Source: Streptomyces colonosanans
GTDB taxonomy: Bacteria; Actinomycetota; Actinomycetes; Streptomycetales; Streptomycetaceae
Reading direction: 5' to 3'
Assembly: GCF_001866645.1 (NCBI RefSeq)
Contig: NZ_MLYP01000042.1
Location: 62,001-126,000 of the forward strand
DNA: 64,000 nt
Shown here: positions 20,901 through 49,952 of the stretch, piece by piece
Position numbering within the stretch: position 1 is the first letter of the stretch
How the letters are laid out: every line of letters begins with the position of its first letter
Position numbers and translations under genes: made by a program
The notes under the pieces: generated by a model
Told to the model about the DNA's origin: nothing
Database searches by the model: none
The model's input: only the letters and a program-made list of their open reading frames with translations

Positions 20901-23483
20901 GGCGGCGGAGCGCGGGCCGCTTGACGGGCCCATCAGGTCGGTCAGTGCCGAACCTGTCCATGGATCGTCCGGCACGGCGGTGAACAACCGCACCGTGTAA
21001 TGGAGATGCGACAGATGACGTCGCTCTTGAAGAGAGACCAGCATGTCGGCAAGGAGTTCACCGTGTCCCGCGCCGAGCGCGTTGATCACCAGGGTTTCGG
21101 CATAGGGGTGGAGGCGGATGTACTTCTCGACCCGGTCGGCGAGTTCACCACCGCTGACACCGCCCGCCGCGGCTGCCGCGTCGATACCCAGCGCATCCGC
21201 CACCCTGGCCAGCACTTCGCGTGGGTCGTCGACTTCGCTGGGCAGACAGATCTGCCAGTAGTCGGTCAACCGGCTGCTGGCAAAGGCGAGTTCGCCGGAA
21301 TCCAGAGGGACGGCGAGCGGATACCCGAGGGGGGCGAGCCGCTGTTCCAGGCTGTCCAGCCGCGCCCTGACCACGCCTGCCGAAGCGCCCTGGAGGCTGT
21401 CGAGCCAGTGGTCGGCCAGGGCTGCCTGTCCGCTCCACCACAGCATGCGCAGCGGATGGGTGGGGGCAACGAGGATCACGGTGCGTCGGCTGCCGTCGAT
21501 ATCGTGAAGGCGAACGACGAGTGTGTCCGTGCGCAGCAGACTGCGCAGTGCGGCCCGCCGCTGATCGGTGTCAGAGGCGTTCGGTCGATCCAGGGACCGT
21601 AGGCAGAAGGTGACGGCACCAAGATATGCCTCCGCATAGGCCTCCACCGCTTCCCTGAGTGCACGCGGGTCCATGCCTTCCACAATCAGGGCATCTCCCA
21701 CGCCGCCGGGTGATGCCGGTAGAGAGAAGTGATTGAAGAGCGCTGCGCGTGCATGGACGTAGTCCTGCACGGGCCCGTCAGGCGGGATGTCGGAAGTCCC
21801 CTCGGTGGACTCGGGAATGACGGCGCCCCCTGCCGGATCCACCTCGATCTCAGGGCCGTCCAGCGCGTGCGGTTCGCGCAGCATGCGCTGCTGCGCCTCG
21901 GCGAGAATCCTCGGCACATCGATGGTGACCAGTCCGGCGGGCCCGAACGACGCACGAAGCGAACGAGTCTTGAGACTCGTACTGCGCGGCCCCCAGCCGA
22001 TGTCGCGGCACTGCACACGGTGGGGTGTTCGTCCCTCGGCGAGCGCTGTGAAGCGCAGCCGGTTGACGGCCTGGGCGAGGCCGGGCGCATGGTGGCCACG
22101 CTGGGCGGGCGGTTCGTCGAACTCGCCTTCAGGGATGACGTAGAAGCGGTTGCTCTCGTGCGGCTTACGGCCCTCAGTCTGCCCACCGAAGGCGAACCGC
22201 AGCGGATCGCCGTTGCCGTCGAGCGGAGTGACCCGCACGAAGTGCCAGCCCTCCTCCCAGTCGGGGTTCCGGCGTCCCTTCTTGAGCTTGATGGTGGCCC
22301 TGAGGGCGGATTTAGTTTTGGCGGTGACCGGCTTGGTGATGGTCAGCCCTGTAGGGCTGGCAAGTGGCGTGCTGTCGCCTTCGTCCTCGGTGTCGTCCCC
22401 GGTCTCGGCGCAGATCTCGACCTTGAAGCCTTTGATTCCCGTGATGCTGCGCGGGTCGGGATCCACGGTGAAGGTGACGGGCAGGGAGGACAGCCCGCCC
22501 GGCAGCAGGTAGGGCTGGCCGAAGAGGCGCTCCAGGGCGGGGTGGTTGCGCTGGTCCTCCGCGTTCTCACCGGCTTTGGGCAGCGCGGTCAGATCGTCGA
22601 CCTCGATGCGTACGGTCTGGCCGGAGGGGTCGTTCTCCTGTGGCCAGTGCTGGAAGGCGAGAGGCCAATTCTCCGGGTCGGCGGCGATGGCCCGACACCA
22701 GTGACGGGGATCGGTCAGCCCGGTCGCCGCGGCGAAGTCGACCAGGCGGCGCAGGAAGCGCTGGTGTTCAGCCGAGTTGCGGGGCAGGCCGAGGGCGAGA
22801 ATGCGCTGCCTGTCGGTGGCGGCGCCTTCGGTGAGCTTCTCGACGGTGCGACGGTTGCGCTGAATCTTGGGAACGACGAGGGTGGGATCCGCGAAGAGGC
22901 GGAAGTCCGGGATGAGGCCCAGCAGATGGATGGCCGCTCCGGCAGCCTCCGGATGATACTCGTTCTCCCTCAGGGTGAGCAGATACCGAGCAGCTGTCCG
23001 GTCACCAGTGTCGGACATCTCCGCGAGCAGTTGCTCGACTCCCCCACGCAGTTGCTCGGGGACGTCCTTGAGCACGTTCCGCTTCAACCGGGTGTGAATC
23101 TCTTGAAGAGAGATCTCCTCGAAGGTAGCGACGGAGAAGGAGTCCTCCGCGCTGGCCTTGGTTCCGGGCGGTACGAAGACCAGCAGTGGCGGCCTCAGCC
23201 GTCCCTGCTCATCGGGGTTCCGCAGTTCGACCAGCTTGGTACTGGTGATGTATCTGCCGTCCCCCTTAGTGGGGCTGGTCGCGAGGACATGCACCTGAGC
23301 ATCGGGGACGGCTGTGCACAGACCGCCCGCGAGGCGGGCGGCAAGCTGGGAGTCGAGTCCTCCCACACGCATGCAATGGCCCGGTTCTCGGGCACGCAAC
23401 AGCTCGGCGAGGCGCGGCAGGATGACGTGTTCGAGGGCTTGCCGCCAGTCGGTCTCTGAGATCTCCACCAATCCGCGTGCCAT
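17946..23483 (-). CDS. large HerA/FtsK-like ATPase with nuclease-like motif (MAD8-type)
   Basis: An 1845-aa protein. The C-terminal third is a HerA/FtsK-type ATPase: P-loop GVQGGGKSYTLG (about 1490), Walker B LVVFDEAHKYAD (about 1719) and a following VASQDP sensor. Near residues 1160-1183 is a TDLALFDL...LLEVKCHTS pattern resembling a PD-(D/E)XK nuclease core. The first 1000 residues carry no motif I can name. It is last in the operon, 8 nt after the 564-aa gene. By type and position it fits the ATP-binding protein MAD8 of the methylation-associated defence system (family name from memory). Inferred role: DNA translocation and cleavage of unmodified invading DNA. Less extreme GC and codon bias than neighbouring core genes suggests acquisition by transfer. 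Confidence 0.8.
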   Translation of the reverse strand: MARGLVEISETDWRQALEHVILPRLAELLRAREPGHCMRVGGLDSQLAARLAGGLCTAVPDAQVHVLATSPTKGDGRYITSTKLVELRNPDEQGRLRPPLLVFVPPGTKASAEDSFSVATFEEISLQEIHTRLKRNVLKDVPEQLRGGVEQLLAEMSDTGDRTAARYLLTLRENEYHPEAAGAAIHLLGLIPDFRLFADPTLVVPKIQRNRRTVEKLTEGAATDRQRILALGLPRNSAEHQRFLRRLVDFAAATGLTDPRHWCRAIAADPENWPLAFQHWPQENDPSGQTVRIEVDDLTALPKAGENAEDQRNHPALERLFGQPYLLPGGLSSLPVTFTVDPDPRSITGIKGFKVEICAETGDDTEDEGDSTPLASPTGLTITKPVTAKTKSALRATIKLKKGRRNPDWEEGWHFVRVTPLDGNGDPLRFAFGGQTEGRKPHESNRFYVIPEGEFDEPPAQRGHHAPGLAQAVNRLRFTALAEGRTPHRVQCRDIGWGPRSTSLKTRSLRASFGPAGLVTIDVPRILAEAQQRMLREPHALDGPEIEVDPAGGAVIPESTEGTSDIPPDGPVQDYVHARAALFNHFSLPASPGGVGDALIVEGMDPRALREAVEAYAEAYLGAVTFCLRSLDRPNASDTDQRRAALRSLLRTDTLVVRLHDIDGSRRTVILVAPTHPLRMLWWSGQAALADHWLDSLQGASAGVVRARLDSLEQRLAPLGYPLAVPLDSGELAFASSRLTDYWQICLPSEVDDPREVLARVADALGIDAAAAAGGVSGGELADRVEKYIRLHPYAETLVINALGAGHGELLADMLVSLQERRHLSHLHYTVRLFTAVPDDPWTGSALTDLMGPSSGPRSAAAEAFATPGDPLRPKLSVVIRDAAELLRSADDFPAHLTFLFNPFGGESHDIAAGSDGTGRVAVHGLVQEMSSAYQEDDENVEWTRQPRHGVTDPVTGAETTGDLLAALPRTLSAALVAASAGEHRPGMLPQITVRLTPDDRALLHEVHRMSDWVVTVDRTLGAEYFDHGRRGRSEYIIDHTTMSRGGLGHQLVVSSRSLDEMRALIAPVLADRALGIPERHIRTFFDQLREMSGSLVFKLAALGESQRTEVLGLALARLYLGARKALRNQILVPLDTHPELYDEERSRATGGDTEVRLHRTDLALFDLDAERRTIVCRLLEVKCHTSGGIGAYQSKRRQVIRQTENTERILAQRFDPSEGRADRPLQNVALRTLLDQYLSRAGRYGLFDERAMDEARWFLKRLDHGYRLEFTRSGLVFDLSQDGFDTDEEEGVAFHRIGRDQAVQLLDAIATEYLPAPEDAAQDEPVLPGWEAFGTKESDSVAGVTMRLRPRTRTRDIPEEPAPLSEDPDEDEPDIPTPLGPDEFGRAPDAASPLGERDAIASSDSAGAIDQRGGPVSSPQGDMREVQGGGAVEPGSEGEVSDALETGDPDVVLGTSRASAQFGLLGMSAGRTVALDLNETHAISLFGVQGGGKSYTLGSVLEMASVQVPGVNRLASPLASIVFHYSETSEYEPEFLSMLQANDDEGQREALRRRYGAQPTGLEDVVLLVPEEYVEERQARYPGVQVHPLAFAAAELKIAHWKFLMGAIGNQSGYIRQISRIIKANRADLTWEAVRRGVEESSLEDHLKRKARERLDIAGDYIDDSVRITELARPGRLIVVDLRSDDIEKSDALSLFVVLMQLFSEATDQGRPFNKLVVFDEAHKYADSGDLVNGLVSNVRQMRHKGMSVLVASQDPPSVPSELIELSTHIVLHRFTSPAWLKHLQKVNAALAGLNPEKLAALRPGEAYVWSGKATDEAFVRGVVKVDCRPRVTRHGGATRTALG

Positions 23484-23491
23484 GTCCGCGT

Positions 23492-25186
23492 CTACCTTCC
23501 GCCCGCCGTGACCAGGCCGTCTTCGGTGATCGTGAACCTCGGGGTGATCACCTGGGTGAGATAGGCGTCCGAGAGGTCTTCGTAGAAGCCGATCTCACGC
23601 ATCCGCGTGGTGAACGCCTCGGTGTTGGCCCGTAGGACCGTTTCCTCCTCCAGCCCCACCGGATCGAAACCGTCCGAAGTCGGCAGGCGGTCCACGTAGA
23701 GGCCGTACCGATCGCGCAGCAGCGCCAGGAACTCGTCGAGCCGCAGGGAGACCGTGTGGTGGGTGTACGGGGAGAAAGTGCCGCGGGGGTTCACCCGCAG
23801 CAGCGCCACCTGCACCAGCACCTCAAGCAGGGCGCTGTCCAGGACGAAGCGGCGGCGGCCCCGGTGGGGCTGGGCGATGGCCGCGCCGGGTCGGTTCTTG
23901 AGCAGCAGGGCATCGATGGTGTCGACGATGTACTTGTGGTGGTATCGCCCTCGGTAGGCCATAAGGAGTTCCAGGTACTTCTCGAAGGGGTCGAGTCCCA
24001 TGGCCTCGTCTAGCAGAGGGCGTACTTCCTCGGGCTGTTCGCTCACCGGGGTGTCGTCGGTGATCGAGGTCAGCCTGGAGCTGAAGAACTCCTCACGCGA
24101 CTTGCCGTATGCGTCCGTGCCGAAGCGCAGCAGTTCAGGCACGGTGAAGTGACCGCGGACAGGTCTGGTTTCCTTACCCTGGCCGACCAGATGCTCGGCG
24201 AATTCGTCGAGTTTGCGGATGGTGTATGCGGCGCGGACGAAGCCAGGGATGCGGCGGAGCCAGTGTTCCGCGCTGTGCTCTGCGAGGGCTGCGGCGGGGG
24301 TTCCGGGCGCTCCGGCGACATCGACGAAGAGCCCGACACGGAAGGGGCATCCGGCGAGCGGATCGGGTGCGGCGGCCGAGGCGGGGCAGCGGTCGTGACC
24401 GCAGGCCGGGTCCGTCGCCGACCGGGCGACCGCCTGGGGCAGCAGCTTCATCGTCTTGAGCTGGCCGAGGGCGAGATGAAAGGCGAAGAGGATCTTCAGG
24501 TACTCGACCATGGTGATGCGGGGCAGCAGGTCTTTCAGAGAGAGCAGCCGCACCACGTCGTCGGCCAGGAGGTCCGCCTGTCCGATGCACAGCGGGGGCG
24601 CGGAGTACCAGCCCTTGACACTGTGCGGGCTGTCCGCCTTGACCTGACTGTTGAGATGCAGCACCGCCTGGGTCTCGACGTCGATGGGAGCTGTCTGGGC
24701 CGGTACCGAGTTCGCGGCGTCGAGACCGGTGAAGAAGAATTTCCGGATCTGGTCCAGCGCGAGCTCTCCGTAGGGGCCACGGGCGTGCCGCAGCATCTCG
24801 TACAGCTGCGCATCAGCGCCGTACGGACGGGAGTGGTAGTAGTTGCGGAACTTGTACGTGAGACCGTGCAGGGGCCGCAGCCCGGCGACCGCCTGGGTGG
24901 GCCTGCCTCGGTTGACCATGTCGAGGAGCTGGGTCTCGACCCAGCGCCGGGCCATGTCCGGGTGATCGGCGAAGCCCTGGAACCGGTCCGTGTGGCGGGC
25001 GTCGGTGAACTCGCCGGCGAACTCCGCCACCGACAGGTCATTGCGCCGCACCATACGGCTGGTGAGGCCCTTGTGGTTGAGCCGCATCAGGAAGCCGGTG
25101 AGGACCCGGTCCATCTGCACGCGCTTGAACTCCAGGTAGGAGACGCCGAGATGCTTGAACTCGGTGTCGCGTCGGCGCAGTGCCAT
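23492..25186 (-). CDS. 564-aa defence-operon protein (MAD7-type), unknown function
   Basis: A soluble, mostly helical-looking protein with no catalytic signature that I can identify. A small Cys/His-containing stretch (CGHDRCPASAAAPDPLAGCP, about residues 268-287) could bind a metal. Its ATG overlaps the stop codon of the kinase gene (ATGA), and the ATPase gene follows 8 nt later, so the three proteins are made from one message and probably form one complex. The position between the kinase and the HerA-type ATPase is that of MAD7 in the methylation-associated defence system. That assignment is from context and memory. Confidence 0.72.
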   Translation of the reverse strand: MALRRRDTEFKHLGVSYLEFKRVQMDRVLTGFLMRLNHKGLTSRMVRRNDLSVAEFAGEFTDARHTDRFQGFADHPDMARRWVETQLLDMVNRGRPTQAVAGLRPLHGLTYKFRNYYHSRPYGADAQLYEMLRHARGPYGELALDQIRKFFFTGLDAANSVPAQTAPIDVETQAVLHLNSQVKADSPHSVKGWYSAPPLCIGQADLLADDVVRLLSLKDLLPRITMVEYLKILFAFHLALGQLKTMKLLPQAVARSATDPACGHDRCPASAAAPDPLAGCPFRVGLFVDVAGAPGTPAAALAEHSAEHWLRRIPGFVRAAYTIRKLDEFAEHLVGQGKETRPVRGHFTVPELLRFGTDAYGKSREEFFSSRLTSITDDTPVSEQPEEVRPLLDEAMGLDPFEKYLELLMAYRGRYHHKYIVDTIDALLLKNRPGAAIAQPHRGRRRFVLDSALLEVLVQVALLRVNPRGTFSPYTHHTVSLRLDEFLALLRDRYGLYVDRLPTSDGFDPVGLEEETVLRANTEAFTTRMREIGFYEDLSDAYLTQVITPRFTITEDGLVTAGGR

Positions 25187-28100
25187 CAGCGCGCACCCTC
25201 CGTGTCGTGTCCGCTGGTTTCGGGCGCCGCGGAGTCGGGCAGTGCGGGGGCCAGGCTCAGGGCGCCGTCGGGCAGTCGGCTGAGCCGGTAAGGCGGCGAG
25301 CCGGGCGCGTTGAGCAGCACCTCCTGGTAGGAGGTGGCGGCCAGTGCGTTCTTGAAGACGGCCAGGGCGAGGTTCTGTCCTTGGCGGTCCTCCACTCCGG
25401 GCTGGTGGCCCTGGTGCAGCCGGTCGAGCAGTTCGTACAGGTCGAGCCGGACAGCCAGTTGGGCACGGTGGGCGCGTCCGTCCTCGGGATGGTGGCGCAC
25501 CACGAGTTCGCGGGCGCTCGTCTCCACGTACCTCGAGGAGGGCGGCTCGGCGACGGCGATCGTGAAGCTGCCCGCCGGGAACAGCCGGTGACTGCGTACA
25601 GTGCCTCCGGGCACGGCACGCACTTGCAGGGCCAGGTCTCTTCCCTCCCTGCCGAGAGCGCGCGGCATACCCTCACCGCGGTTGACCGCCTCGATGAGGC
25701 GGGACAGCTCCTCGGGGCCAGGATTCCCCGCGGCCAGGAGGCGCAGGAAGCGGTCGGCGGCCTGGTAGGGCAGCAGGCCCATCCATCGGGTGTCGTCGAG
25801 GCTCTCGAAGTAGAAGCGCCGCCGTGCCGCGGCAAGGTAGGCACGGTGCGCGGAGATCTGGGCGCGGTCGGCGAGATGTGTGCGGGGCAGGGCGCGGAAG
25901 CGTTCGGTGAGGAGCCTCTCGTCGAGGTCTCCGCGCTGGTCGAAGGAGACAAGGGTGTGGCCAGCGGCGGGGCCCGTGTAGTCGAGGCGCCGGTCCAGCT
26001 GGGGATCCGGTACGGCTGCGACGTCGAGCTCGCGGAGCTGGCCGAGAAGGCGGTCCCGCTCATCGGTACCGCTCTCGCCGGTGTGGATACCCGCCCAGCT
26101 GGTGAAGTAGAGGCTGTCGAGAACGTCTTGCCGTGCCTCGTGATCGTCGCTTGCGTAGAGCGCCTGGATCTGGGCGCAGTCGCGGCCCGAGGTGAGGGTG
26201 TAGGCGAGAGCGGAGCGCAGGTCGCGCAGGGTGATGTGGAGCCGCCCGCGCAGATGCACCATGCGGTAGAGCGTGGCGAGCCGCTCGGTGACCTGTTTCC
26301 CCGCGGTGGGGTGGGCGAAGGTACGGGCGTTGTGGAGGGCGTAGCAGCGCGGGGCGAGCGCGCAGGACGCGCAAGCCTCCCAGTTTCGTTCGCCGGTCAG
26401 CGAGGCAACCATCCGGTGCATGATCGATCCGGTGCCGTCCGGATCGGCCAGGACATCGCGGGCGTTGAGGTTGACGACGGCGACTCCGTGCGCTCCGCGG
26501 CCGGTGGACAGCCCCTCCCGGACGATGGCGGCGAGCAGCGGATATCGGTCCTCGTGCCGGGCGGCGAAATCGACGAGGCGGCCTTCGTTGACAGCGATGA
26601 GCCGGGTCTGGTCATCGGGCCATGCCTGGGGAACCTGCCCCTGGTAGGGGGCGAGGAAGGTGTCGAGGACGGTGTCGTTCTCGGTGTCTCCCTCGTCCTG
26701 GCTGCCATCGTGGTTGGTGTGGAAGGTACGGCCGTCCAGGGTGAAGTCGTCGCCGTTGGCGCGAGGTTCGTCGAAGTCGGCGCCGCGGCGGCGTGCCTCG
26801 TCCGCGAGGTGTTGCAGGAAGGCTGTCTTGCCGTCGCCGGCGTTGCCGGTGATGACCACGAGACGGTGCAATCCCTTGAGGACGTCCGGGCGCAGTCGGG
26901 AATCGAGGGCAGTCTCGACGTAGAGCGGGTGGTCGGCGGGATCCAGGCCGCGGGTGCCTGCGTTGGTGCGGGCGCTCTGGCTGTAGAGGGTCTGGAGATG
27001 GCTGACGAAAGGGTTACGGCCCGCAGAGTCACCACCGGTCGCTGTGAGGCGCGATCGCGCCGCCGGGACGTGCGGCACGATCCGTACTTCGTGTACGGCG
27101 GCGAGCGCGGCGCGGAACTCCTCGGCGTCGCGGTAGCGCTGATGGCGGCGGGGGGCGATGGCACGCAGCAGAACCGCGGTGAAGTCGGGATCGAGGTCCG
27201 CGAGGCCGGGCAGCCGTCTCGGGTCGAGCGGCTGCGTGCCTCGCTGCGGGGTCCTTTGGCCCTCCCACGGATAGCCGCCGGTGAGCGCCTCGTACGCGGA
27301 GATCCCGAGGGCGAAGAGGTCGAGATCGGTGAGCTGTTCGCGGCTGGGCCGCTTCAGACCGGTGGCCTCGGGCGCGAGGTAGCGGGGTGAGCCGAGGGTC
27401 GGGGTGAGCGTGGAGTCCTCGGAGACGGCCGCGTTGAAGTCGAGGATACGGGCGCCGTCGGCCGTCCACAGCAGGTTGCTGGGCTTGATGTCGCAGTGGA
27501 ACACACCGTTGAGGTGCAGGTGGCCCAGTCCGGCGAGGCAGTCGTCGAGCAGCTTGCGCACGTCGGCGGGGCCCAGGGTGCGGTCCTGGTTGAGGACGCG
27601 TTGCAGATCCTGTCCCTCCGCGAACTCCATACGAAGGTATGGGAAGCGGCTCTTGGGCAGCCACTCGGCGTCAATGAGCCGCACGAGGTTGGTGTGCGGA
27701 GGCAGTTTGCGCAGGATCCGGTACTCGCCCTTGAGGCGCTCCTCGACGGACTCGTGGTCCTTGGTGATGATCTTCAGGACTTCGTCGGCGTCGTCCAGGG
27801 TGTTGAACACCCGGTAGACGACGCCGAACTGGCCCTGCCCCAGCCGAGCGCGCACCCGGAACTTCTCGGTGAGGCGGAAGCCCTCGGGCAGGTCGGCATA
27901 GCTGTACGGGTTGTTCCAGTCGAAGGGGTCGCCAGGCTCCTCGCGCACCGGGCGCCGTGCCTGCACCCGGGAGCGGCCCGCGTCGGCCATGGACAGCCTG
28001 CTGATCACGTCCCGGGCGAGTGGCCGGTCGGCCGGGTCGACGGACAGCAGCCCCCGGATGACCGCCTTGAGCTCGGGATCGAGCTGTTCGGTCTCGTCGA

Positions 28101-29391
28101 GGCTGTCGAGCAGTATCCCGCCCGCCCCCAGAGAGGGAAGCTCACCCGTGTAGAGCTCGTGGAAGAGCACACCGGCCGCGTACAGGTCGGTGGCCGGGGA
28201 GAAGCTGCCGGGATGCTGATGGCACTCGGGCGCGAGATACGCCGAGGGCTGATGGACGTACGCCGCCATGCCCACGCTGAGCTCGCTCGGGCGGGGCGGC
28301 CCGGGATGCGCGTAGTCGAAGCCGGTGAGCATGGCGACGCCGTTGCGTCCGACGAGCACGGTGTCCGGGCTGAGATAGCGGTGGACCACCCGGTGGGCGT
28401 GTGCGACAGCGAGGCCGCTGAGGACCCCGTCCACGATGCGCCGCCTGGCGTCGGCGCCGAGCGCGGAACGGCCCTTCGCGTCCAGCTTGACGCGCAGGGC
28501 TTCGGCGAGGACGTCCTTCAGAACGACGGCGTATCCCTCGCCCTCGTCCAGCGGGAAGGACGTGACGCACGGGACGATGTTCGGGCAGGGGGGAAGCTTG
28601 TTGAGGGCCTGGATCGGGTTGCCGATGCGCGCGTACGCCGTGGACCGCTGCTCGTCGGGCAGTAAAGGGTCGACGGCGTGTGCTTGGAGGATGTACGTCC
28701 CCGACCGCGGCTGGTCCGCCAGCCGCACCTGGTACACGGAGACGCGGCGGGCCGGGTCGTCGTCCTCGGACGTGTCGGTGTGGTCGGCCTCATGGAGGGT
28801 CTCCACGACCTCGTAGTGGCCGAAGCGCCGCTTCCCGGCCGGCGGACGGGTCTCCGCCTGGAAGACACGGGCCAGGTCGGCACGTAGCGCCGAGATGTCC
28901 CCCGTGGGCCGGTTCCCCGGCGGGCGGTGGCGCTTGAGGAAGGGCACCAGGTCGTCGAGGTGGAGGGTGCTCGGCTCGTCACGGCCATCGGGGTCGTGCA
29001 GGGTGGCTCCCGGGTACGGCAGGATCACCAGGCCCTCGCACCACACCGACCCGAGCCGCCCTCCCCCGGCCCGGGACCGCGCCAACAGGTCGGCGGCGAC
29101 CCGCGCATGGTTACGGATCTTCCGCCCCGGGCTCGCGAACGGCGCGCCCCGCGGATACCAGCGCCCGCCGCGCACTTCGACCCGGCCGTGCACCCCCTTG
29201 GTGTCCGCGAGGTAGACGGCGTGATCGGCGATGATCGCCAGATCCACCTCGAACATCGGTCGCCCCGGCCCGTACGGCAGCTCGAAGTTGGCGACGACGA
29301 TCCACTCGTCCGACGCGTGCTCCCGCAGATGGCGCAGCACCATGCGTTCGGCCTCGTTGGCCGGCTCCCCGATCGGGATGATCCGCGCCAT
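25186..29391 (-). CDS. NERD-pseudokinase-Ser/Thr kinase-ATPase fusion (MAD6-type)
   Basis: A 1401-aa four-part protein. (1) Residues 1-110: NERD nuclease-related domain, with Asp50 and the Asp63-Thr-Lys65 core. (2) About 160-450: a kinase-like domain with HRYLSPDTV in place of HRD and GFD in place of DFG, so probably inactive. (3) About 505-790: a Hanks-type kinase with GQGQFGVVY, HCDIKPSNLL (about 631-640), ILDFNAAV and an APEA loop, probably active. (4) From about 830: a P-loop ATPase with ITGNAGDGKTAFLQ (about 848). NERD-kinase fusions are known from PglW of BREX type 2 and from the MADS kinase. The neighbours favour MADS. It heads a three-gene operon under a damage-type promoter. Confidence 0.82.
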   Translation of the reverse strand: MARIIPIGEPANEAERMVLRHLREHASDEWIVVANFELPYGPGRPMFEVDLAIIADHAVYLADTKGVHGRVEVRGGRWYPRGAPFASPGRKIRNHARVAADLLARSRAGGGRLGSVWCEGLVILPYPGATLHDPDGRDEPSTLHLDDLVPFLKRHRPPGNRPTGDISALRADLARVFQAETRPPAGKRRFGHYEVVETLHEADHTDTSEDDDPARRVSVYQVRLADQPRSGTYILQAHAVDPLLPDEQRSTAYARIGNPIQALNKLPPCPNIVPCVTSFPLDEGEGYAVVLKDVLAEALRVKLDAKGRSALGADARRRIVDGVLSGLAVAHAHRVVHRYLSPDTVLVGRNGVAMLTGFDYAHPGPPRPSELSVGMAAYVHQPSAYLAPECHQHPGSFSPATDLYAAGVLFHELYTGELPSLGAGGILLDSLDETEQLDPELKAVIRGLLSVDPADRPLARDVISRLSMADAGRSRVQARRPVREEPGDPFDWNNPYSYADLPEGFRLTEKFRVRARLGQGQFGVVYRVFNTLDDADEVLKIITKDHESVEERLKGEYRILRKLPPHTNLVRLIDAEWLPKSRFPYLRMEFAEGQDLQRVLNQDRTLGPADVRKLLDDCLAGLGHLHLNGVFHCDIKPSNLLWTADGARILDFNAAVSEDSTLTPTLGSPRYLAPEATGLKRPSREQLTDLDLFALGISAYEALTGGYPWEGQRTPQRGTQPLDPRRLPGLADLDPDFTAVLLRAIAPRRHQRYRDAEEFRAALAAVHEVRIVPHVPAARSRLTATGGDSAGRNPFVSHLQTLYSQSARTNAGTRGLDPADHPLYVETALDSRLRPDVLKGLHRLVVITGNAGDGKTAFLQHLADEARRRGADFDEPRANGDDFTLDGRTFHTNHDGSQDEGDTENDTVLDTFLAPYQGQVPQAWPDDQTRLIAVNEGRLVDFAARHEDRYPLLAAIVREGLSTGRGAHGVAVVNLNARDVLADPDGTGSIMHRMVASLTGERNWEACASCALAPRCYALHNARTFAHPTAGKQVTERLATLYRMVHLRGRLHITLRDLRSALAYTLTSGRDCAQIQALYASDDHEARQDVLDSLYFTSWAGIHTGESGTDERDRLLGQLRELDVAAVPDPQLDRRLDYTGPAAGHTLVSFDQRGDLDERLLTERFRALPRTHLADRAQISAHRAYLAAARRRFYFESLDDTRWMGLLPYQAADRFLRLLAAGNPGPEELSRLIEAVNRGEGMPRALGREGRDLALQVRAVPGGTVRSHRLFPAGSFTIAVAEPPSSRYVETSARELVVRHHPEDGRAHRAQLAVRLDLYELLDRLHQGHQPGVEDRQGQNLALAVFKNALAATSYQEVLLNAPGSPPYRLSRLPDGALSLAPALPDSAAPETSGHDTEGAR

Positions 29392-29488
29392 CGCCCCGCT
29401 CCCTCGTTCTCACGCCGTACGCACACCGCACCCGCCCCACGAGCACCGGCACGCACACGGTCATATGCCGACGCCTGTGTCACGGGAC

Positions 29489-29511
29489 ACTCTAGGACGC
29501 CCCACTGACAA
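29489..29511 (-). promoter_or_regulatory. RecA-independent DNA-damage-type promoter before the kinase operon
   Basis: On the minus strand it reads TTGTCAGTG, then 8 bases, then TAGAGT. This fits TTGTCRGTG-N8-TAnnnT, the motif described for RecA-independent, PafBC-controlled damage promoters in mycobacteria. The kinase ATG is 98 nt downstream. Two more exact matches in this window precede a beta-clamp gene and an ECF sigma gene. Confidence 0.72.
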
Positions 29512-29537: not shown

Positions 29538-29723
29538 TCACAACACCTCGCCCCGGCTACGGGCGTTGGCCACGGCCACGCGGGCCCGCAACAGCCTGTC
29601 GTCCGGCGACGTGCCGCCCACCGAGCCGTCGGCAGCCACCGGCTCGACGTCACCGGGACGCGCGGTCCACTCCCGGCCGCCGCCGGGAGGGCGCAGCCAA
29701 ACGTAGCCGTCGAGGTGGTCCAT
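29538..29723 (-). CDS. small conserved-type hypothetical protein (61 aa)
   Basis: A 61-aa acidic protein starting MDHLDGYVWLRPPGGGREW, preceded by a good ribosome site (GGAAAGGAG, spaced 6-7 nt from the ATG). Its stop is 27 nt before the kinase promoter. Similar small proteins with a DGYVWLRPPGGGREW-like start occur beside DUF5753 regulators in Streptomyces, as I remember. It therefore probably belongs with the divergent regulator pair rather than with the defence operon. Function unknown. Confidence 0.6.
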   Translation of the reverse strand: MDHLDGYVWLRPPGGGREWTARPGDVEPVAADGSVGGTSPDDRLLRARVAVANARSRGEVL

Positions 29724-30100
29724 GACGACTCCTTTCCGGTCCCGCCGTGTGTCATAGGCGAGTTCACCGACGGGGAAACGGCCCGGCTCATCGGCGGCGC
29801 GGGCGGTCGCCTGGTCGGCGGCACGCGCCTGCGCGGCGGCCTTGTCGGCGGCTCGATCGGGGCGGTGGGGGGTCGTACGGCGGGTCAACTGTGCCTCCTG
29901 TGCGGTTCTCGCTGTTCGCGCTCTCAGCGTCACCGTCAGGAACCGTCGCTGGACAGGGGGACGGTGTTCCACGAGGAGATCCGGAACAACCCTCACCTGC
30001 CGTTCTTCACCGTTCGCACCCACGCTGTCACCGAACGCGACTAGCGTGGACGGCGTGATGACATCCCCTCGGGGATGCGGAACCACGAGGGAGCACCGCC
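29724..30100. other. divergent promoter region, candidate regulator inverted repeat
   Basis: A 377-bp gap between the 61-aa gene and the DUF5753 regulator. The open frames in it have no recognisable features. An inverted repeat CGTTCG (30011-30016) and CGAACG (30032-30037), 15 nt apart, lies 64-90 nt before the regulator's ATG beside a TAGCGT -10-like box (30042-30047). It could be that regulator's own operator; this is a guess from symmetry only. Confidence 0.4.
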
Positions 30101-30949
30101 ATGACCAAGCCCGGCCGCGCACTCACCCCCGCCCGCTCCGCCCGCGACCTCTACGGCGTGGAACTCAACCGCCAACGCCAGCTCGCCGGGCTGTCGTTGG
30201 ACCGACTGTCGGACATCGTCAACTACAGCAAGACACATCTGCACGGGGTGGAGACGGGTGAACGGCTTCCGTTGCCGCCGATCTCGGAGAAGCTGGATCT
30301 GGCCTTTGGGACAGGGGAGTTGTTCCAGGGGCTGTGGGGCGCGATGAAGCGGGAGCACACGGCTCGCCGGTTCGATCACTGCTTGGAGCTGGAGGCTCGG
30401 GCGGCGCGGATTCAGGAATTTGGCGCGAACGTCATCCCCGGGCTGCTCCAGACCCCCGCGTACATGCGCGCGTTGTTCATCAAAGGCAATCCAGGAATGA
30501 GCCCCGTGAAGATCGACGACTTGGTGGCGGCCCGCCTGAGTCGCCAGGAGGTTCTTCGACGCGACAATACGCCGGACTTCTGGTGGATTCTCGGTGAAGC
30601 GACCCTGCGCCAGGCTGTGGGCGGACCGAGGGTGATGTGTGAGCAGCTCACGGCCTTGCTTCCGCTAGCGGAAACACGCCGCACGACGATCCAAGTCATC
30701 CCGTTCGAGGCGGGCGCGTGCACCCTGATGAACGGCACACTCATCTTGCTGACTCTCCCGGACAACTCGACCACCGTGTACCAGGAAGGCCCCAGGAACG
30801 GCGAGATCTTCGACGACCGGGATACCGTCACGCTGCGCATGCGAGAGTACGATCTGATGAAGGCCAGCGCCCTCTCGCCAGGAGAGTCCGCAGCGCTGAT
30901 CGAAGCGACGATGGAGACATACCAGCCATGCGAGCCACCTCGGACCTGA
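30101..30949 (+). CDS. XRE-family regulator with DUF5753 domain
   Basis: A 282-aa protein with an N-terminal helix-turn-helix (about 20-75; LSLDRLSDIVNYSKTHLHGVETGERLP) and a C-terminal DUF5753 domain that begins at LEARAARIQEFGANVIPGLLQTPAYMRAL. This is the Scr1/WhiJ-like class abundant in Streptomyces. Such proteins usually work with an adjacent DUF397 protein, which is present here and overlaps its 3' end by 22 nt. The pair stands on the opposite strand inside the defence gene set, between the kinase and the specificity subunit. Whether it controls the defence genes or is a passenger cannot be told. Confidence 0.9.
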   Translation: MTKPGRALTPARSARDLYGVELNRQRQLAGLSLDRLSDIVNYSKTHLHGVETGERLPLPPISEKLDLAFGTGELFQGLWGAMKREHTARRFDHCLELEARAARIQEFGANVIPGLLQTPAYMRALFIKGNPGMSPVKIDDLVAARLSRQEVLRRDNTPDFWWILGEATLRQAVGGPRVMCEQLTALLPLAETRRTTIQVIPFEAGACTLMNGTLILLTLPDNSTTVYQEGPRNGEIFDDRDTVTLRMREYDLMKASALSPGESAALIEATMETYQPCEPPRT

Positions 30950-31187: not shown

Positions 31188-32609
31188 TCAGCCGGTCACG
31201 GCCTCCTCCAGCTTGGCGAGGGCCAGATCTTCCTTGACGTCGGCTTCGTCGCGCTTCCTGTACGCGTCACGGATGGTGTTGGCGATGCGATCACGGTCGG
31301 CCTCCGTCAGAACCGGCACAGGAATGCTCGTACGCAGCTCCTCATGGATGTCCTGCTGCTTGCCACCAACGGACATGGAACGCAGAACGCGGAAGGCGGC
31401 CTCCGAACGGAGAAAAGCGAAGAGGTAGGCACCCGGAACAGTGGGTTCCCCACTCACGACACGCAGGAAGTGCTGACTGTAGGCGTGGTCGAGCCAGGAG
31501 CCGGTTACCAGGAACGGGCGACAGAACACCTCGTTCTCGCCCAAAGTTCCCTGAGCCGCAATCATCACTGTCTCATCCGACGCAAAAATGCCCGGCGGCG
31601 CCTGCTCTGGGCTGATCCAACGCCCCTCCGGTCGCAACCAGAACGCCTGACGCTGGCCAATGAGGCGTACAGCGCCGTGGTCCGGTTCTGCGTCAATGCG
31701 CTTGAAACGCACCCCGGACCCCAGCACGCCCCCCTTGCAAACCTCCCCCAACGTCACACACTCCACAGACCCCAGCCGCTCCAGAATCTCCTCGGCCCGC
31801 GGCTGGAAGTTGAGCGCCCGCAGCGTGGTCGCCGTAAGGCCCCGCTTCACGAACCCCAAGTCCCGCCCGCGTTCATGCCACCTGAGGTCGAGCAGGTCCT
31901 CCAGGTGAGCCGTGCTGAAGAGATCGCGCGTGGCCTGGGCAAGCCCCTCCTGAAACGCAGCCCGCAACTCGGCTGCTTCCTGAATGAGTTCGTGGATCTC
32001 CTTCTCGACCGCATCACCGAAGCGAGGGATCGGGATATCCCCCACATGGTCAGGAGAGATGTGCTTGACGGCCGATCCGTATACCCCACCCCTGACGAGC
32101 ACCTCACCGAACCGGCTACTCAGGAAGGCGCACAGATACCCAGGAGGGGTAATCCCGGAATCGGGCTCGACCTTGATGACGTCTTCCGATGACCAGAAGC
32201 CGACCATGTCAGGCCGTACATAAGCCCGTCGCCCCGCATTGAATCCCGACCGGGAGATCAGCGTCATCCCGGATTTGAGCTTCAGGTCGGCCAGCCGGGA
32301 TGACACGGCGTCTTCCCTGCGCAGCAGGGGCAGTGTCGAGAAGTCGGCGAGTTGCATGTCCTTGCTGCCGACGAACGGCACGCCATGCGCGGGGTCAGTC
32401 ACGTACACGCGCCGGAAGAGCGGTCCGCTGACAATGCCCCCGGACCGGCCACCGGTCAGGTCCCTCAGCGGCACCTTCTCCACCCGCAGCCGCTCCAGCA
32501 ACCGCTTCGTCGCGAACGCCCCCGACAAGTAGGGCTTGGCATCCAGCCGCAACCCCTGCTTGTCGAGCCACCCGCGCATCGCCGGGTTCCCCGGTTCCGC
32601 GACCTTCAC
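31188..32609 (-). CDS. HsdS-like DNA specificity subunit (MAD5-type)
   Basis: A 473-aa protein with the two-repeat layout of type I S subunits: an N-terminal target-recognition region (to about residue 200), a helical spacer (EKEIHELIQEAAELRAAFQEGLAQA), and a second target-recognition region ending in a conserved helical arm (ADRDRIANTIRDAYRKRDEA). Each repeat contains the ISPDHVGDIPIP or LRTSIPVPVL end-of-domain pattern. It should direct the methyltransferase to a bipartite sequence. It overlaps the methyltransferase gene by 4 nt. No HsdR gene is present, so it is not part of a classical type I system. The type and position fit MAD5 of the methylation-associated defence system. Confidence 0.84.
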   Translation of the reverse strand: MKVAEPGNPAMRGWLDKQGLRLDAKPYLSGAFATKRLLERLRVEKVPLRDLTGGRSGGIVSGPLFRRVYVTDPAHGVPFVGSKDMQLADFSTLPLLRREDAVSSRLADLKLKSGMTLISRSGFNAGRRAYVRPDMVGFWSSEDVIKVEPDSGITPPGYLCAFLSSRFGEVLVRGGVYGSAVKHISPDHVGDIPIPRFGDAVEKEIHELIQEAAELRAAFQEGLAQATRDLFSTAHLEDLLDLRWHERGRDLGFVKRGLTATTLRALNFQPRAEEILERLGSVECVTLGEVCKGGVLGSGVRFKRIDAEPDHGAVRLIGQRQAFWLRPEGRWISPEQAPPGIFASDETVMIAAQGTLGENEVFCRPFLVTGSWLDHAYSQHFLRVVSGEPTVPGAYLFAFLRSEAAFRVLRSMSVGGKQQDIHEELRTSIPVPVLTEADRDRIANTIRDAYRKRDEADVKEDLALAKLEEAVTG

Positions 32610-34894
32610 GCCTCCGCCCCCGGCTTCCAGGGAAGTTCGTCCCGGTACCGGTCCAGGAACGCGTGGTACTCGGTGATGACGCTCGGCCGGTTGTGGCGCT
32701 TGCGCCGTTGCCGTAGGGGCATGAGGTCATCGTCGCGGATCAGGTCACGCCGCTTGAGGGTGCGGGGAATCGCCACGTTGTTGACGACGATCTCGTCGGT
32801 CACCTCGTACTCGTCCACGACGAGGTCACCACGAGCGTCCCGCACATACAGAGGATTGCCGCGCCGGTCGACGCCGACCTTCTCCGCGACGGCCATGAAC
32901 ACCGGGTAGTCGGCGGGACCGTGCACCCGTTCCTGGAACTTCTCCTCATCCGTCTTCTTCGTCAAGAAGAGCAACGTGGTGAGGATGTTGACGCCCGCAC
33001 CCTCGACGAAGATCTCCACCGGGAGTTCGACGCTGGCCATGACCCAGCACTCGTCGAGGACGTACTGGCGTACCGCCTCGTCGTCGGGGCCGGGGTTGGA
33101 GAGGATTCCGTTGGGCAGGACGATGCAGAGACGACCGCCGGGCCGTACCCATTCGATCGCCTTCTGGACGAAGAGCCGTTCCGGGGCGACGGAGTAGGCG
33201 GGCTTGCCGCGCTTGAGGGTGCCGTCCGGCTTCCGGCTCCAGCCGTAGGCGATGCTCCGCTCCTTCTCCACACCCGACGGGTGCTTGCGGAACAGGTCCA
33301 GGACCGGGCCTGTCACCGGGATGTCCGTACCGAAGGGGGGGTTAGTGAGCAGCACATCGAGCTTGCCGGGTTCGATGCGGTGGCGGAACGGCTCGGCGAG
33401 CCTGACGCCGGGGAGGTTGCCCAGCCAGGGGAAGCCGAGGGAGTCCATCTGGAACGTATGGCCCGCGATGTCGGTGAGCATCATCACACCGAACGCGGCG
33501 GCGCGCGTCAGGAAGGGGTCGAAGTCCGCTCCGAAGATCCGTTCCTCGGCGTACCGGCCGAGCCGCTGCCGCAGCGCGGTCTCCAGGCGGGCCCGTTCCT
33601 GGACGGACAGTGACTGCTCGTCGTCGGGCATCCACTTGTGCAGCACGTGGAGCAGGGTCTCGCGCAGGAACCCCCCGGTGCCGCAACACGGGTCGAAGAC
33701 GGTCTCGCCCTCCTTGGGGTCGAGGATCTCGACCGCGAGCCGGACCGCCCGGAGCGGAGTGAAGTACTGGCCGCGGTCACCACGCAGGTTGTCACCGACG
33801 AGTTCCTGGTACGCGGTGCCGAGGGCGTCGAGCGAGGTGTCGTGCAGGCTGTAGGTGGCCAGTTCACCGGTGATGAACGTCAGGGCTCCGTCGCCGAGGG
33901 TGAGCCGGTCGTACTCGTCGAACAGTTCCTGCTCGGCGTAGAACTCCTTGACCTCCTCGAAGAGTTCCCTGACCCGGGCAGCGACGGCGGGGCTGCCCTC
34001 CTCACCCATGACGGCGGCGGCGAGGTCGGCGCTGTCGACGTGGAACCGGGTCTCCCGCTTGCCCTCCCGCACCAGACGCTCGTCGTAGAGCTTGGCGAAC
34101 AGGACGTACAGGAACTGCCAGAACGCGGCGTCCTTGGGCAGGCCCTCGTTTCCGTGGATGTAGTTGTGGCAGCGGCGGAAGGCGAACCGCAGCATCGATT
34201 CGTCGGCCCGCCGCATCACGGCGAGCGAGGAAGCATTGCCTTGGGCGTCGAAGACCGTCGCGTCGCCGCGCGGCCAGTTCAGCAGCGGCAGGTACTTCTC
34301 CTCGAAGGGCGAGGAGGTGTCGCGGCGGATGAAGTACAGGTCCTTGTCGTCGGTCCACATGCCATACACGCACTCGTCGCCGGCGGCGTGCATCAACGAG
34401 GCAACCTCGTCGACCTGCTCCTTGGCGTGCGCGAATGTGCGGATCTTGGAGACGGTACGGCTCTCCTTGGGGCGGGCCTTGGTGACGACGATGCGCCGCA
34501 CGTACTGCAGCTTGTGCGGCTTGCCGTGTTCGAAGATCGCGATGCTCGCGCGGCGCCGGGACTTACGGCCGGTCTCCTCGTTGATCACAGGAATCGAGAA
34601 GTCGGCTTCCATGTCACGGGGATCGATGCCGTACTGATGGACCAGCGAGCGGGCGATCCGCTGGCGCACCTTCTCAGCCTCGGTGAGCTTCACCACCTCC
34701 GTGCCGGTGATGTAGTCGAAGCCCTCGTCGTCCTGAAGCTTCCGCGGCTCCGCGCTCTCCCCCGAGCCGTTCTCTGCGCTCACCATCTCCGCGCCCCGCT
34801 TGCCGGACTTCCCACGCTTCCTCGACGCCCCGGACGCCCCCGGCTTCGGCTCTCCCCCGCCAGGAATGTCAAGACCCAGCTGTTCCTCAGCCAT
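32606..34894 (-). CDS. N6-adenine DNA methyltransferase, HsdM-like (MAD2-type)
   Basis: A 762-aa methyltransferase. The SAM-binding motif I is DPCCGTGGFL (about 397-406) and the catalytic motif IV is NPPF (about 515), the form of type I-like N6-adenine enzymes. A lysine-rich, low-complexity N-terminus of about 60 residues precedes a domain with the VVTKARPKESRTVSKIRTFAH region. I chose ATG 34894, which has an AAGGTGG ribosome site; the ORF is open further upstream. Its stop overlaps the S subunit start, and the AIPR gene lies 151 nt upstream. Expected role: marking host DNA so that the defence proteins spare it. Confidence 0.87.
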   Translation of the reverse strand: MAEEQLGLDIPGGGEPKPGASGASRKRGKSGKRGAEMVSAENGSGESAEPRKLQDDEGFDYITGTEVVKLTEAEKVRQRIARSLVHQYGIDPRDMEADFSIPVINEETGRKSRRRASIAIFEHGKPHKLQYVRRIVVTKARPKESRTVSKIRTFAHAKEQVDEVASLMHAAGDECVYGMWTDDKDLYFIRRDTSSPFEEKYLPLLNWPRGDATVFDAQGNASSLAVMRRADESMLRFAFRRCHNYIHGNEGLPKDAAFWQFLYVLFAKLYDERLVREGKRETRFHVDSADLAAAVMGEEGSPAVAARVRELFEEVKEFYAEQELFDEYDRLTLGDGALTFITGELATYSLHDTSLDALGTAYQELVGDNLRGDRGQYFTPLRAVRLAVEILDPKEGETVFDPCCGTGGFLRETLLHVLHKWMPDDEQSLSVQERARLETALRQRLGRYAEERIFGADFDPFLTRAAAFGVMMLTDIAGHTFQMDSLGFPWLGNLPGVRLAEPFRHRIEPGKLDVLLTNPPFGTDIPVTGPVLDLFRKHPSGVEKERSIAYGWSRKPDGTLKRGKPAYSVAPERLFVQKAIEWVRPGGRLCIVLPNGILSNPGPDDEAVRQYVLDECWVMASVELPVEIFVEGAGVNILTTLLFLTKKTDEEKFQERVHGPADYPVFMAVAEKVGVDRRGNPLYVRDARGDLVVDEYEVTDEIVVNNVAIPRTLKRRDLIRDDDLMPLRQRRKRHNRPSVITEYHAFLDRYRDELPWKPGAEA

Positions 34895-35045: not shown

Positions 35046-37196
35046 TCACTCCTCGCCGCCCTCGCCTGCATCGAGATCATCGACCGCCCGCAGCTCCGCC
35101 GCGATATCGGCCAGCGAGCCCTCGCCCGGGATATGCCAGTAGCGGGTCCCCTGGACCTGCTGATGGACCCCCATGGCCTCACCGCGCATCTGCCGGGTGA
35201 GCGTGGAGGGCGCGTACGGCTGGCCGTCCGCCTCCCACACCAGCGGCTTCGTCTTGTTGTTCCGCCACACCGCACGGGTTCGGTTCGCATCAGCGGCGAG
35301 CCAGTTCGGCAGCCCTCGGCGGTCGGGGCCGGTCACGGGACGGAACTCCAACACCGTGCCCTCGGCGATCCGCCCGGCGTCGACGATCACCCGCACCGCG
35401 TTCGCGAGCCGACCGGCCCTGCCCTGCGTCTGCTCGGTGACCCGGTAGTCGCTGAAGTCAGGTGCCTTGTCGCCCGAGCCGAGACGCTCCAGCAGCCGCC
35501 GCTGCACGACCTTTACCCGGTCGGCCGTGCGGACGGTCGTCGCGTACTGGCTCTTCTCGCCGAAGGCCGTGTCGGCGATCTCCACGAACCACCACAGGGC
35601 CCGCTCCGTCAGCTCTGGCACCTCGGCCAGCCGCGCCCCCCACGCGGCCTCCTGTGCCTCACTCGAGTCGTCGAGGGTGCCGGTGTCCATGGTGTGGAAG
35701 ATCGCGTGGGCTATGAGCAAATCGGCATTGCCCGCCGCGCTCGCGACCCGCCCATACAGATCGACGCGCAACTTGTACAGGGCGGCGCGCACCTCCCGCA
35801 GCAGCTGCACGACGCGCCAGACACGGGCGGCGCTCGGCCGGCGTCCAAAGAGGTCACGGTAGTGGCGGTCCTCCCACAGAGTGGATGAGTCCCGTTTGGC
35901 CCTGGCGACCATCTCGGGCGACCGGTGGGTCGCGGCGAGGGCGAGGGCGGCCTCGGTCATGGTGCAGCCGGCCGCCTCGTGGGGCGCTGGTTCCCCGCGC
36001 CTGATGACGTAGTTGAGACCAAGCGAGACGATGAAGTCGTCACGCAGGTCGAACTGGACCTGGTCACGCGACTTGAAGTCGCGCTCCTGCACCGGATTCT
36101 GGGTGTTGGCGGCAGTGGTGACCCGGTCGCCGAAGCCCTCAGGACATGCCTTGAGGGAGATGATCCGCACCAGAACCCGGCCCTTCCCCGCCGTTCCCGG
36201 ACTCTTCTGCACGGCGCGCGCGATCGCATCGACGGTCTGCGCGCCGTTGACGACGCTGGCGCCCTTCAGTCGGAAGCCGACCCCCGCGCCCGGCCTGAAC
36301 TCCCCCTTCCCCTTCGGGTCATAGCTCTCGCACAGCAGCGTGATGCCGTTACTGAAGTACCAGAAGTGTTCGGGCTCGCTGAGGAGTGTGCCTTGGATCT
36401 TGGGATTGACGTCGGACACGTCCAGGGCATCACGAATGTTGCGCGAGAACAGGTGAGCCCGATTGTCGCCCTGGTACCACTCGGCGATCTCGGCCACGGA
36501 GACGGTGCCGTAGAAAGCCTCGTACGGAATCGTTTCCTTGCCCGCCCCTTCGAGCCAGACGTCAAGCTCGACCTGCCGCTCGCCTTGGTCGCCGAGAAGT
36601 TCCTGATACAGCCCCCGCAAATCGATGACCTTGTAGTCGATCATCCCTGGAATCCAGCTGCGGGAGCGGATACCCTCTTCGAGTTCCCGCTTGATATTGG
36701 GGTGCAGGTCGTTTTCCGTGACGAGCGCCAGCACCAGCTTGATGGTGCCGGGGTTGTCGAGCGCGGTCTCCAGTGCTGCCGCATGGGGCTCGATCCGGCT
36801 GTTGAAGCGGTGGAACTCCAGCGCCCTCAGATCGTCCAAGCCCCGGAAGAGTGCCCTGAGCTCGCGCTCACCGAAGCCCGCGGTGCCGTTCTCACTCCAC
36901 TTCGCCTGTACCAGCGTGATGTGGTACCTGTCCTCGCCGCGTTCCTCGACGGCGACGGCGTCGATGCCCCGGTCCCCGAAGTCGTCGATAAGCCCCGAAG
37001 CCGCCTCCCGGTCGCTCCACCGCGTCTCCTGTTTCACAGCCAGGGCCGCGACCGCACGGCTCAGGAAGGCCCTTTCCTCTTCCTTGGTGCTCGAGTTGGC
37101 GCGGTCCGACATGTCGATGTGCGGCCGGAACCTCTTCTCCAGTCCTTTGCGCAGATGGCGCATGTAGTACGAATTGGCCACGGACGAATTGGCCAC
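35046..37196 (-). CDS. AIPR-family (abortive infection) protein with Mrr-like N-terminus
   Basis: A 716-aa protein. The AIPR signature is clear: WYFSNGITLLCESY (about 280-293) and ASVVNGAQTVDAI (about 313-325). Its N-terminal domain has a GIDAVAVEE...ITLVQAKW pattern (about 75-100) like the D-x(n)-Q-x-K active site of Mrr-type nucleases. AIPR proteins are linked to phage resistance in lactococci and often sit beside methyltransferases. Here it is first in the methyltransferase/S-subunit group. GTG 37196 is chosen because a GGGGGG(A) stretch precedes it. A 15-bp tandem duplication overlaps the start region. It may be the effector nuclease that responds to unmethylated DNA; this is an inference. 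Confidence 0.8.
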   Translation of the reverse strand: MANSSVANSYYMRHLRKGLEKRFRPHIDMSDRANSSTKEEERAFLSRAVAALAVKQETRWSDREAASGLIDDFGDRGIDAVAVEERGEDRYHITLVQAKWSENGTAGFGERELRALFRGLDDLRALEFHRFNSRIEPHAAALETALDNPGTIKLVLALVTENDLHPNIKRELEEGIRSRSWIPGMIDYKVIDLRGLYQELLGDQGERQVELDVWLEGAGKETIPYEAFYGTVSVAEIAEWYQGDNRAHLFSRNIRDALDVSDVNPKIQGTLLSEPEHFWYFSNGITLLCESYDPKGKGEFRPGAGVGFRLKGASVVNGAQTVDAIARAVQKSPGTAGKGRVLVRIISLKACPEGFGDRVTTAANTQNPVQERDFKSRDQVQFDLRDDFIVSLGLNYVIRRGEPAPHEAAGCTMTEAALALAATHRSPEMVARAKRDSSTLWEDRHYRDLFGRRPSAARVWRVVQLLREVRAALYKLRVDLYGRVASAAGNADLLIAHAIFHTMDTGTLDDSSEAQEAAWGARLAEVPELTERALWWFVEIADTAFGEKSQYATTVRTADRVKVVQRRLLERLGSGDKAPDFSDYRVTEQTQGRAGRLANAVRVIVDAGRIAEGTVLEFRPVTGPDRRGLPNWLAADANRTRAVWRNNKTKPLVWEADGQPYAPSTLTRQMRGEAMGVHQQVQGTRYWHIPGEGSLADIAAELRAVDDLDAGEGGEE

Positions 37197-48709: not shown

Positions 48710-48732
48710 TTGTCAGTGGTCGCGTATAGCGT
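48710..48732 (+). promoter_or_regulatory. RecA-independent DNA-damage-type promoter, second beta clamp
   Basis: TTGTCAGTG, 8 bases, TAGCGT: an exact fit to TTGTCRGTG-N8-TAnnnT. The first usable ATG is 36 nt downstream. Confidence 0.75.
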
Positions 48733-49929: not shown

Positions 49930-49952
49930 TTGTCAGTGGCCTGCGGTAGCTT
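49930..49952 (+). promoter_or_regulatory. RecA-independent DNA-damage-type promoter, ECF sigma gene
   Basis: TTGTCAGTG, 8 bases, TAGCTT: again a full match to the motif. The sequence just before it (CCGTTGTCAGTGG) matches the clamp promoter as well. The start codon is 57 nt downstream. Confidence 0.75.

Follow-up and report, generated by a model that had tools for sequence, protein, structure and literature searches.

The mad operon and its neighbours

The window analysed here, a stretch of 64,000 nucleotides of Streptomyces colonosanans DNA, covers positions 62001–126000 of its contig in a genome of 7.0 Mb. It contains a group of defence-type genes on the minus strand, all of which were recognised by PADLOC models. 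The mad6 gene (25186–29391) encodes a protein of 1401 amino acids with a NERD domain, two Pkinase stretches and an SspF-like C-terminal part. It is followed by mad7 (23492–25186; 564 amino acids; mad7 model, E = 9.9e-100) and mad8 (17946–23483; about 1840 amino acids; mad8 model, E = 8.2e-40). Upstream lie mad5 (31188–32609), encoding 473 amino acids resembling a DNA specificity subunit, and mad2 (32606–34786), encoding an N6-adenine DNA methylase; the open frame of mad2 reaches 35290, and its codon usage fits a start at 34786. The interval between mad5 and mad6 holds a divergent helix-turn-helix/DUF5753 gene on the plus strand (30101–30949) and a second frame, on the minus strand, within 29538–30122. 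An AbiU-like (AIPR-type) gene on the minus strand (35046–37196) is located directly upstream of mad2 and might belong to the defence island. A gene with an N-terminus similar to that of this AbiU-like protein is found just before mad6, on the opposite strand, in four homologous loci (L019, L020, L021 and L043), and the copy in L019 scans as AIPR/AbiU.

The matches of mad2, mad5, mad6, mad7 and mad8 identify the operon as resembling MADS (Maestri et al. 2024; PMC12904381); its anti-phage activity and its recognition of self by methylation are inferred. It differs from MADS in that the helix-turn-helix/DUF5753 gene splits the operon, in that a putative damage-type promoter is present, and in that no similarity to mad3 (AAA ATPase) or mad4 was found within window positions 15001–40000.

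A damage-type promoter motif precedes mad6

The sequence TTGTCAGTGGGGCGTCCTAGAGT occupies positions 29511–29489 of the minus strand. It is composed of TTGTCAGTG (29511–29503), the 8-nt spacer GGGCGTCC and a −10 box, TAGAGT (29494–29489). The motif points toward mad6, lies between the stop codon of the minus-strand frame (29538–29540) and mad6, and is separated from the mad6 ATG (29391) by 97 nt. The consensus of PafBC promoters in mycobacteria is TTGTCRGTG, an 8-nt spacer and TANNNT. We annotated 29489–29511 (minus strand) as a putative PafBC-type (RecA-NDp) promoter on the basis of its match to this consensus, its rarity and its retention in homologues. Neither TTGTC nor TGTC was found in the relevant passages of the open-access papers searched; the genes that the consensus letters precede in the genome, described below, support their identification as a damage motif.

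The pattern TTGTCRGTG-N8-TANNNT has exactly three matches in the window and none in 100 dinucleotide shuffles (expected number 0.00). The second copy (48710–48732, plus strand) lies 35 nt before a gene for a DnaN-like clamp (48768–49901, with the start taken as 48768), and the third (49930–49952, plus strand) lies 57 nt before a gene for an ECF sigma factor (50010–51026). The motif upstream of mad6 is real, correctly placed and not a product of chance. A LexA box is the expected mark of an SOS promoter. With up to two mismatches allowed, the window contains four matches to the consensus of this box; the closest is at 33015 and none is near 29489–29511, so that the element does not qualify as an SOS (LexA) promoter. 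The predicted RNA structure of the leader showed no excess over shuffled sequences (z = −0.61).

A perfect 5-bp inverted repeat, GTGTC-CCGT-GACAC (29477–29490, minus strand), spans the expected transcription start. We considered it as an operator and dropped it, since the repeat is lost in L018, L036, L039 and L040.

The motif heads a repair-type gene set in a genome that encodes PafB and PafC

Genome-wide, the pattern has 32 exact matches, and the reversed pattern has none. For each of the 32 sites we retrieved the surrounding DNA and noted the two longest frames that start at most 450 nt downstream; 24 downstream proteins (mostly the longest frame) were then scanned against Pfam. Nearly half of the sites (15 of 32) precede genes for DNA repair, replication or damage-type sigma factors. 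These are recA, uvrA, uvrB, two uracil-DNA glycosylase genes (ung), ogt and an alkZ-like gene; the helicase or ATPase genes rarA/mgsA, DinG-like, RecD2-like and DSHCT helicase; and thyX, ssb (after rpsF), the DnaN-like clamp gene and the ECF sigma factor gene. SigG is a member of the PafBC regulon in mycobacteria (PMC8223512). Among the remaining 17 are the site at the mad operon and sites before genes for an ABC/peptidase protein, an MFS transporter, a glycosyltransferase, a WGR protein and a DUF2797 protein, as well as sites before unclear frames. An exact copy on the same contig but outside the window (G000:C104:36511–36533) lies 270 nt before a frame named by eye, which we take to encode an ABC-transporter ATPase-like protein and hence a non-repair target.

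No other defence system was apparent among nine proteins downstream of own-genome motif sites that were compared with PADLOC models. The match of one regulon protein (L045) to mad3 (1.2e-26) was attributed to general similarity through its ABC ATPase part, and the matches of another (L053) to the PDC-S68 and RecD models were likewise attributed to general domain similarity rather than defence.

These results bear on a preliminary description of the locus. Its claim that the motif stands at 29489–29511, on the correct strand before the kinase gene, held, with 97 nt between the motif and the start codon. Its statement that two other exact matches in the window precede a repair-type clamp and a SigG-like sigma factor also held, the clamp being DnaN-like and the sigma factor of the ECF type, as did its inference that the motif is used in this genome. 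The description of the genes as a kinase-led defence operon is supported by the PADLOC recognition of Mad6, Mad7 and Mad8.

Both subunits of the presumed activator are encoded in the genome. PafB matches the PafB chain of structure 7p5x, the M. smegmatis initiation complex, over its whole length (E = 5.9e-53); the match of PafC to the PafC chain covers residues 16–324 of 345 (E = 9.6e-51). The two genes are adjacent and near pafA and prcBA, which is the usual proteasome locus. The gene order there (L081) is prcB, prcA, two further genes, pafA, an FKBP-type gene, pafB, pafC, tatC and a helicase gene that carries the motif; except for pafB, pafC and the helicase gene, these names were read by eye from translations. 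The genome contains five WYL matches, PafB and PafC included.

The motif is enriched throughout the genus

All 101 sampled genomes of the genus (own genome included) contain between 9 and 44 exact matches, compared to 0–2 for the reversed pattern. Eight further genomes, reached via named Streptomyces loci, gave 24–43 matches and 0–1 for the reversed pattern. In a class-wide sample, 87 of 118 genomes had at least one match; outside the family of the window the counts were mostly 0–8, with maxima of 12 (family f4), 14 (f26) and 26 (f19). An initial search in earlier work suggested that S. venezuelae has not conserved the motif of M. smegmatis (PMC9380542). Our genus-wide counts contradict this remark, although S. 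venezuelae was not identified among the sampled genomes. The counts are in agreement with SCO6735 of S. coelicolor, which has a RecA-NDp promoter and rises 5-fold after UV (PMC5087735; PMC9411070). Related earlier work reportedly includes a study of recA in S. rimosus from 2002 and a 2004 paper on the motif, both cited in PMC9411070.

The motif is retained in two clades of homologous loci

We searched for Mad7 in 394 genomes of the family (15 matched), 394 of the class (7 matched), 392 of the genus (21 matched), 200 of the order of genome G714 (7 matched) and 22 of the order of genome G545 (1 matched). There is overlap between these samples, and the family, class and genus counts each include the own genome. 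Nine named Streptomyces loci were added to the results. We left out L038 (from the genome of L018), G949, G911, G1021 and G977 (judged to be the genomes of L039, L040, L042 and L044) and the fragments L015, L016 and G1049. The final set has 40 loci without duplicates or fragments, 31 of them from the family of the window.

In the 810,131 bases of these loci, read on both strands, the pattern has 19 exact and five one-mismatch matches. All 24 precede mad6 or mad2 in the sense orientation, with none elsewhere in the 810 kb, whereas the reversed pattern has no exact match and a single one-mismatch match in the same bases. The 24 matches are not independent events, as the loci share ancestry.

A tree of Mad7 with 33 rows (L089 and L102–L107 were not in it) resolved three clades. 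Clade A consists of the window locus, L017, L018, L036, L037, L039 and L040 (support 95/93); it carries the inserted helix-turn-helix gene, and the motif stands before mad6 in 7 of 7 loci. Two of its members come from named strains, L036 from S. graminilatus and L018 from Streptomyces sp. CCM_MD2014. Clade B (L022–L029, L088 and L090–L095; support 97/93) lacks this insert, mad6 follows mad5 directly, and the motif stands before mad2 in 14 of 15 loci, being exact in 12 and having one mismatch in L023 and L091; L028 is without it. In L022, L024, L090 and L095, and also in L106, the tblastn match to the Mad2 of the window begins before the motif; we infer from the alignments that the start of mad2 lies downstream of the motif in these loci. 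Clade C (L019, L020, L021, L041–L044 and L087; support 94/88) keeps the operon with the motif in none of its eight loci; a −10-like TAAAGT or TAGAGT box precedes mad6 in the seven loci displayed. A long, fully supported branch separates clades A and B, and the fewest changes of motif label on the tree is three (L034 not counted). The distance between these clades, together with the different places of the motif, suggests that the promoter was gained twice or moved.

The seven loci of family f17 behaved in a mixed way. A form of the motif whose first base is not T precedes mad2 in L103, L105 and L106, L104 has two mismatches, and L033, L102 and L107 are without the motif. This non-T form occurs 4–15 times in f17 genomes, compared to 0–2 times in the control. 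L034 and L035 have no motif, and L034 can hardly show one because its contig stops about 265 bases before the mad2 match. L089 was counted as motif-less, but it has no recognisable mad2, mad5 or mad6 N-terminus. In that genome (G825) mad7 is preceded only by the C-terminal quarter of mad6, with mad2, mad5 and the kinase part unrecognised upstream, and the locus may be a rearranged or a different system. Similarity to mad3 and mad4 is present in the clade C loci, in L022, in L034 and in six of the seven f17 loci (L033 through L085). We dropped the idea that the promoter and mad3/mad4 exclude each other, because both occur in L022, and because L028, L035 and L107 lack mad3/mad4 as well as an exact motif.

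The mean pairwise identity within clade A is 1.0 for the core (12 specified bases), 0.61 for the spacer, 0.23 for the 60 nt upstream and 0.41 for the 60 nt downstream. The corresponding values for clade B without L028 are 0.95, 0.52, 0.23 and 0.47. A core that is constant while the spacer and flanks drift argues for function.

The preliminary description proposed to look for the motif upstream of mad6 homologues and named its loss in homologous islands as a refutation. Both outcomes were obtained: the motif is kept in clades A and B, and it is missing from the sister clade C. This result indicates that the promoter is specific to certain clades and not universal for MADS. A further limit is that in clade B the motif precedes the methylase gene mad2 and not mad6. 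The identification of a PafBC-type damage promoter is supported by the tests at the level of sequence (PafB and PafC, the repair regulon, and retention before mad6 or mad2), and induction by damage is inferred.

Two side observations were made in these loci. In clade B, for example in L026, another conserved −10-like element, GTAGGAT or a variant of it, lies roughly 100 nt past the motif and before mad2; it is common to the clade B loci displayed, including the motif-less L028. It may represent a basal promoter beside the inducible one, and might do much of the work; this is inferred from sequence alone. In Streptomyces sp. P3 (L043/L100), several mad genes match in broken pieces, a pattern that could reflect a decaying copy of the system.

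Interpretation and alternative explanations

The most probable explanation, in our view, is that the element serves the defence genes as a damage promoter that depends on PafBC and not on RecA/LexA. The motif, its orientation, its genomic regulon, the presence of PafB and PafC and the retention in homologues are shown, while binding, induction and a benefit for defence are inferred. In mycobacteria, single-stranded DNA activates PafBC, and the sigma-A polymerase then uses the −26 motif (PMC11804915). In the mechanism that we propose, single-stranded DNA would build up when phage or plasmid replication stalls, when invading DNA is cut or when the cell's own DNA is damaged, and PafBC would bind it through its WYL domains. 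The loaded PafBC would then let sigma-A RNA polymerase use the −26 motif and the −10 box, with a predicted transcription start about 7 nt after 29489. Thus damaged or single-stranded DNA would probably turn on defence along with repair, although this induction is inferred in the absence of expression data. In clade A, Mad6, Mad7 and Mad8 would rise together with RecA and UvrAB. These three genes are the kinase and presumed restriction module of a MADS-like system. Because mad2 and mad5 lie upstream and are split from mad6 by the divergent regulator gene, the promoter would lift restriction over the methylation side. In clade B the promoter heads an uninterrupted operon and would drive all of it, not the kinase module alone. 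The effect of raising Mad6–8 cannot be predicted in detail, because the mechanism of restriction by MADS is given as unknown (PMC12904381).

Several observations leave room for other explanations. All eight loci of clade C and L028 are motif-less, which counts against our reading to the extent that the motif is dispensable for some relatives. The absence of the motif from clade C, which keeps the operon, could also be taken to mean that the motif is an inherited leftover or a chance sequence without function. We regard this as very unlikely, given that the core has stayed the same next to a diverging spacer and flanks, and that the motif occurs at two places in two separate clades, always in the sense orientation (24/24), with no other match in 810 kb. 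A real damage promoter might instead be served by another WYL regulator or an ECF sigma factor. Only two of the five WYL matches in the genome are PafB and PafC, and SiwR of M. smegmatis likewise activates from the −26 region after genotoxic stress (PMC10693628). This alternative is unlikely: the motif heads a classical set of repair genes, the usual locus holds an intact PafB and PafC, and the promoter controlled by SiwR contains a 19-bp imperfect palindrome (PMC10693628), whereas the mad6 motif is not palindromic.

The alternative that remains possible is that the promoter is used for self-tolerance or recovery, in a system that harms host DNA or guards unmethylated repaired DNA, rather than for sensing of invaders. 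In its favour, the methylase gene also lies behind the motif in clade B and in some f17 loci, and the methylase could remethylate newly repaired DNA. On the other hand, the clade A promoter precedes only mad6–8, the presumed restriction side, which would worsen self-damage.

The preferred reading, a PafBC-dependent damage promoter for defence genes, can be compared with known systems. The likeness to the RecA-NDp promoters of mycobacterial PafBC and of Streptomyces recA and SCO6735 lies in the type of motif, the repair targets and the presence of PafBC; the targets of PafBC promoters described in PMC8223512 are repair and stress genes, whereas here the target is an anti-phage operon. BrxR of BREX, CapW of CBASS and the ssDNA-responsive CapH/CapP also tie the expression of defence to WYL proteins or single-stranded DNA (PMC10693628; PMC9122588). 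However, the known WYL regulators of defence are repressors beside their own systems (PMC10693628), and here a host-wide activator would act. The defence system AbpAB is similarly activated when host DNA is damaged, or by phage SSB, but the title and the start of the abstract of its paper (PMC10732053) concern activation of the system and mention no damage promoter.

Control of a defence operon by PafBC was not found in the open-access literature searched (titles and abstract starts; most subscription papers lay outside its scope). The single elements are known, namely PafBC promoters, their use in Streptomyces, and MADS; their combination is likely to be new. According to a paper of 2023, regulation of phage defence by a WYL transcription factor was still undescribed in Actinobacteria (PMC10693628), and a paper of 2022 treats the existence of a PafBC-type response in Streptomyces as an open question (PMC9380542). 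Both gaps can now be tested directly, with a motif that is strongly enriched in 101 of 101 sampled genomes of the genus, heads repair genes in the genome examined here and reaches a defence operon. If the proposal is true, sensing of single-stranded DNA by a housekeeping repair regulator sets the level of a restriction system, and immunity is raised on demand and otherwise kept low.

Wadjet-like genes behind the motif in other genomes

We took 40 further motif sites from genomes G784 (26 sites) and G829 (14 sites), picked by eye to avoid recurring spacers, and scanned 25 of the 40 downstream proteins, picked by codon composition. The Pfam matches among them again include repair and replication proteins, such as polymerase III alpha, MgsA, AlkZ-like, UvrD and Ogt-type proteins. 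Matches to GajB and RTasHel and one match to mad2 (1.2e-15) among the G784 and G829 proteins were taken as general domain similarity and not defence.

Two of the 25 proteins are JetA of Wadjet type III (PADLOC, E = 4.5e-188 and 2.9e-188), each starting 7 nt past an exact motif. In both loci (L120, 1–4551, from G784; L146, 1–4501, from G829) jetA is followed by jetB-like and jetC genes, and the JetC of L120 matches its PADLOC model with E = 3.5e-161. The frames between jetA and jetC have no PADLOC match and are 52–54% identical to the second gene of a jet cluster on a Rhodococcus plasmid (L148), which ends in an annotated JetD. In the two Streptomyces genomes, the DNA retrieved beyond jetC showed no similarity to JetD, and these jet clusters may therefore be condensin-like and not defence. 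Similarity to jet genes was likewise absent at 31 stretches of the own genome, at the other 38 of the 40 sites and in 18 further stretches (some overlapping) from three genomes. With so small a sample, it is no more than possible that Wadjet-like genes share the promoter.

A bolder reading is that PafBC couples immunity to DNA damage in actinobacteria generally, with unrelated systems that target invaders placed under an ssDNA-sensing repair activator. We lean slightly against it at present. It draws on the occurrence of MADS under the promoter in two clades and at two positions, and on jetABC in the two Streptomyces genomes and on the Rhodococcus plasmid, where a motif with one mismatch lies 100 nt before the jetA-like gene.
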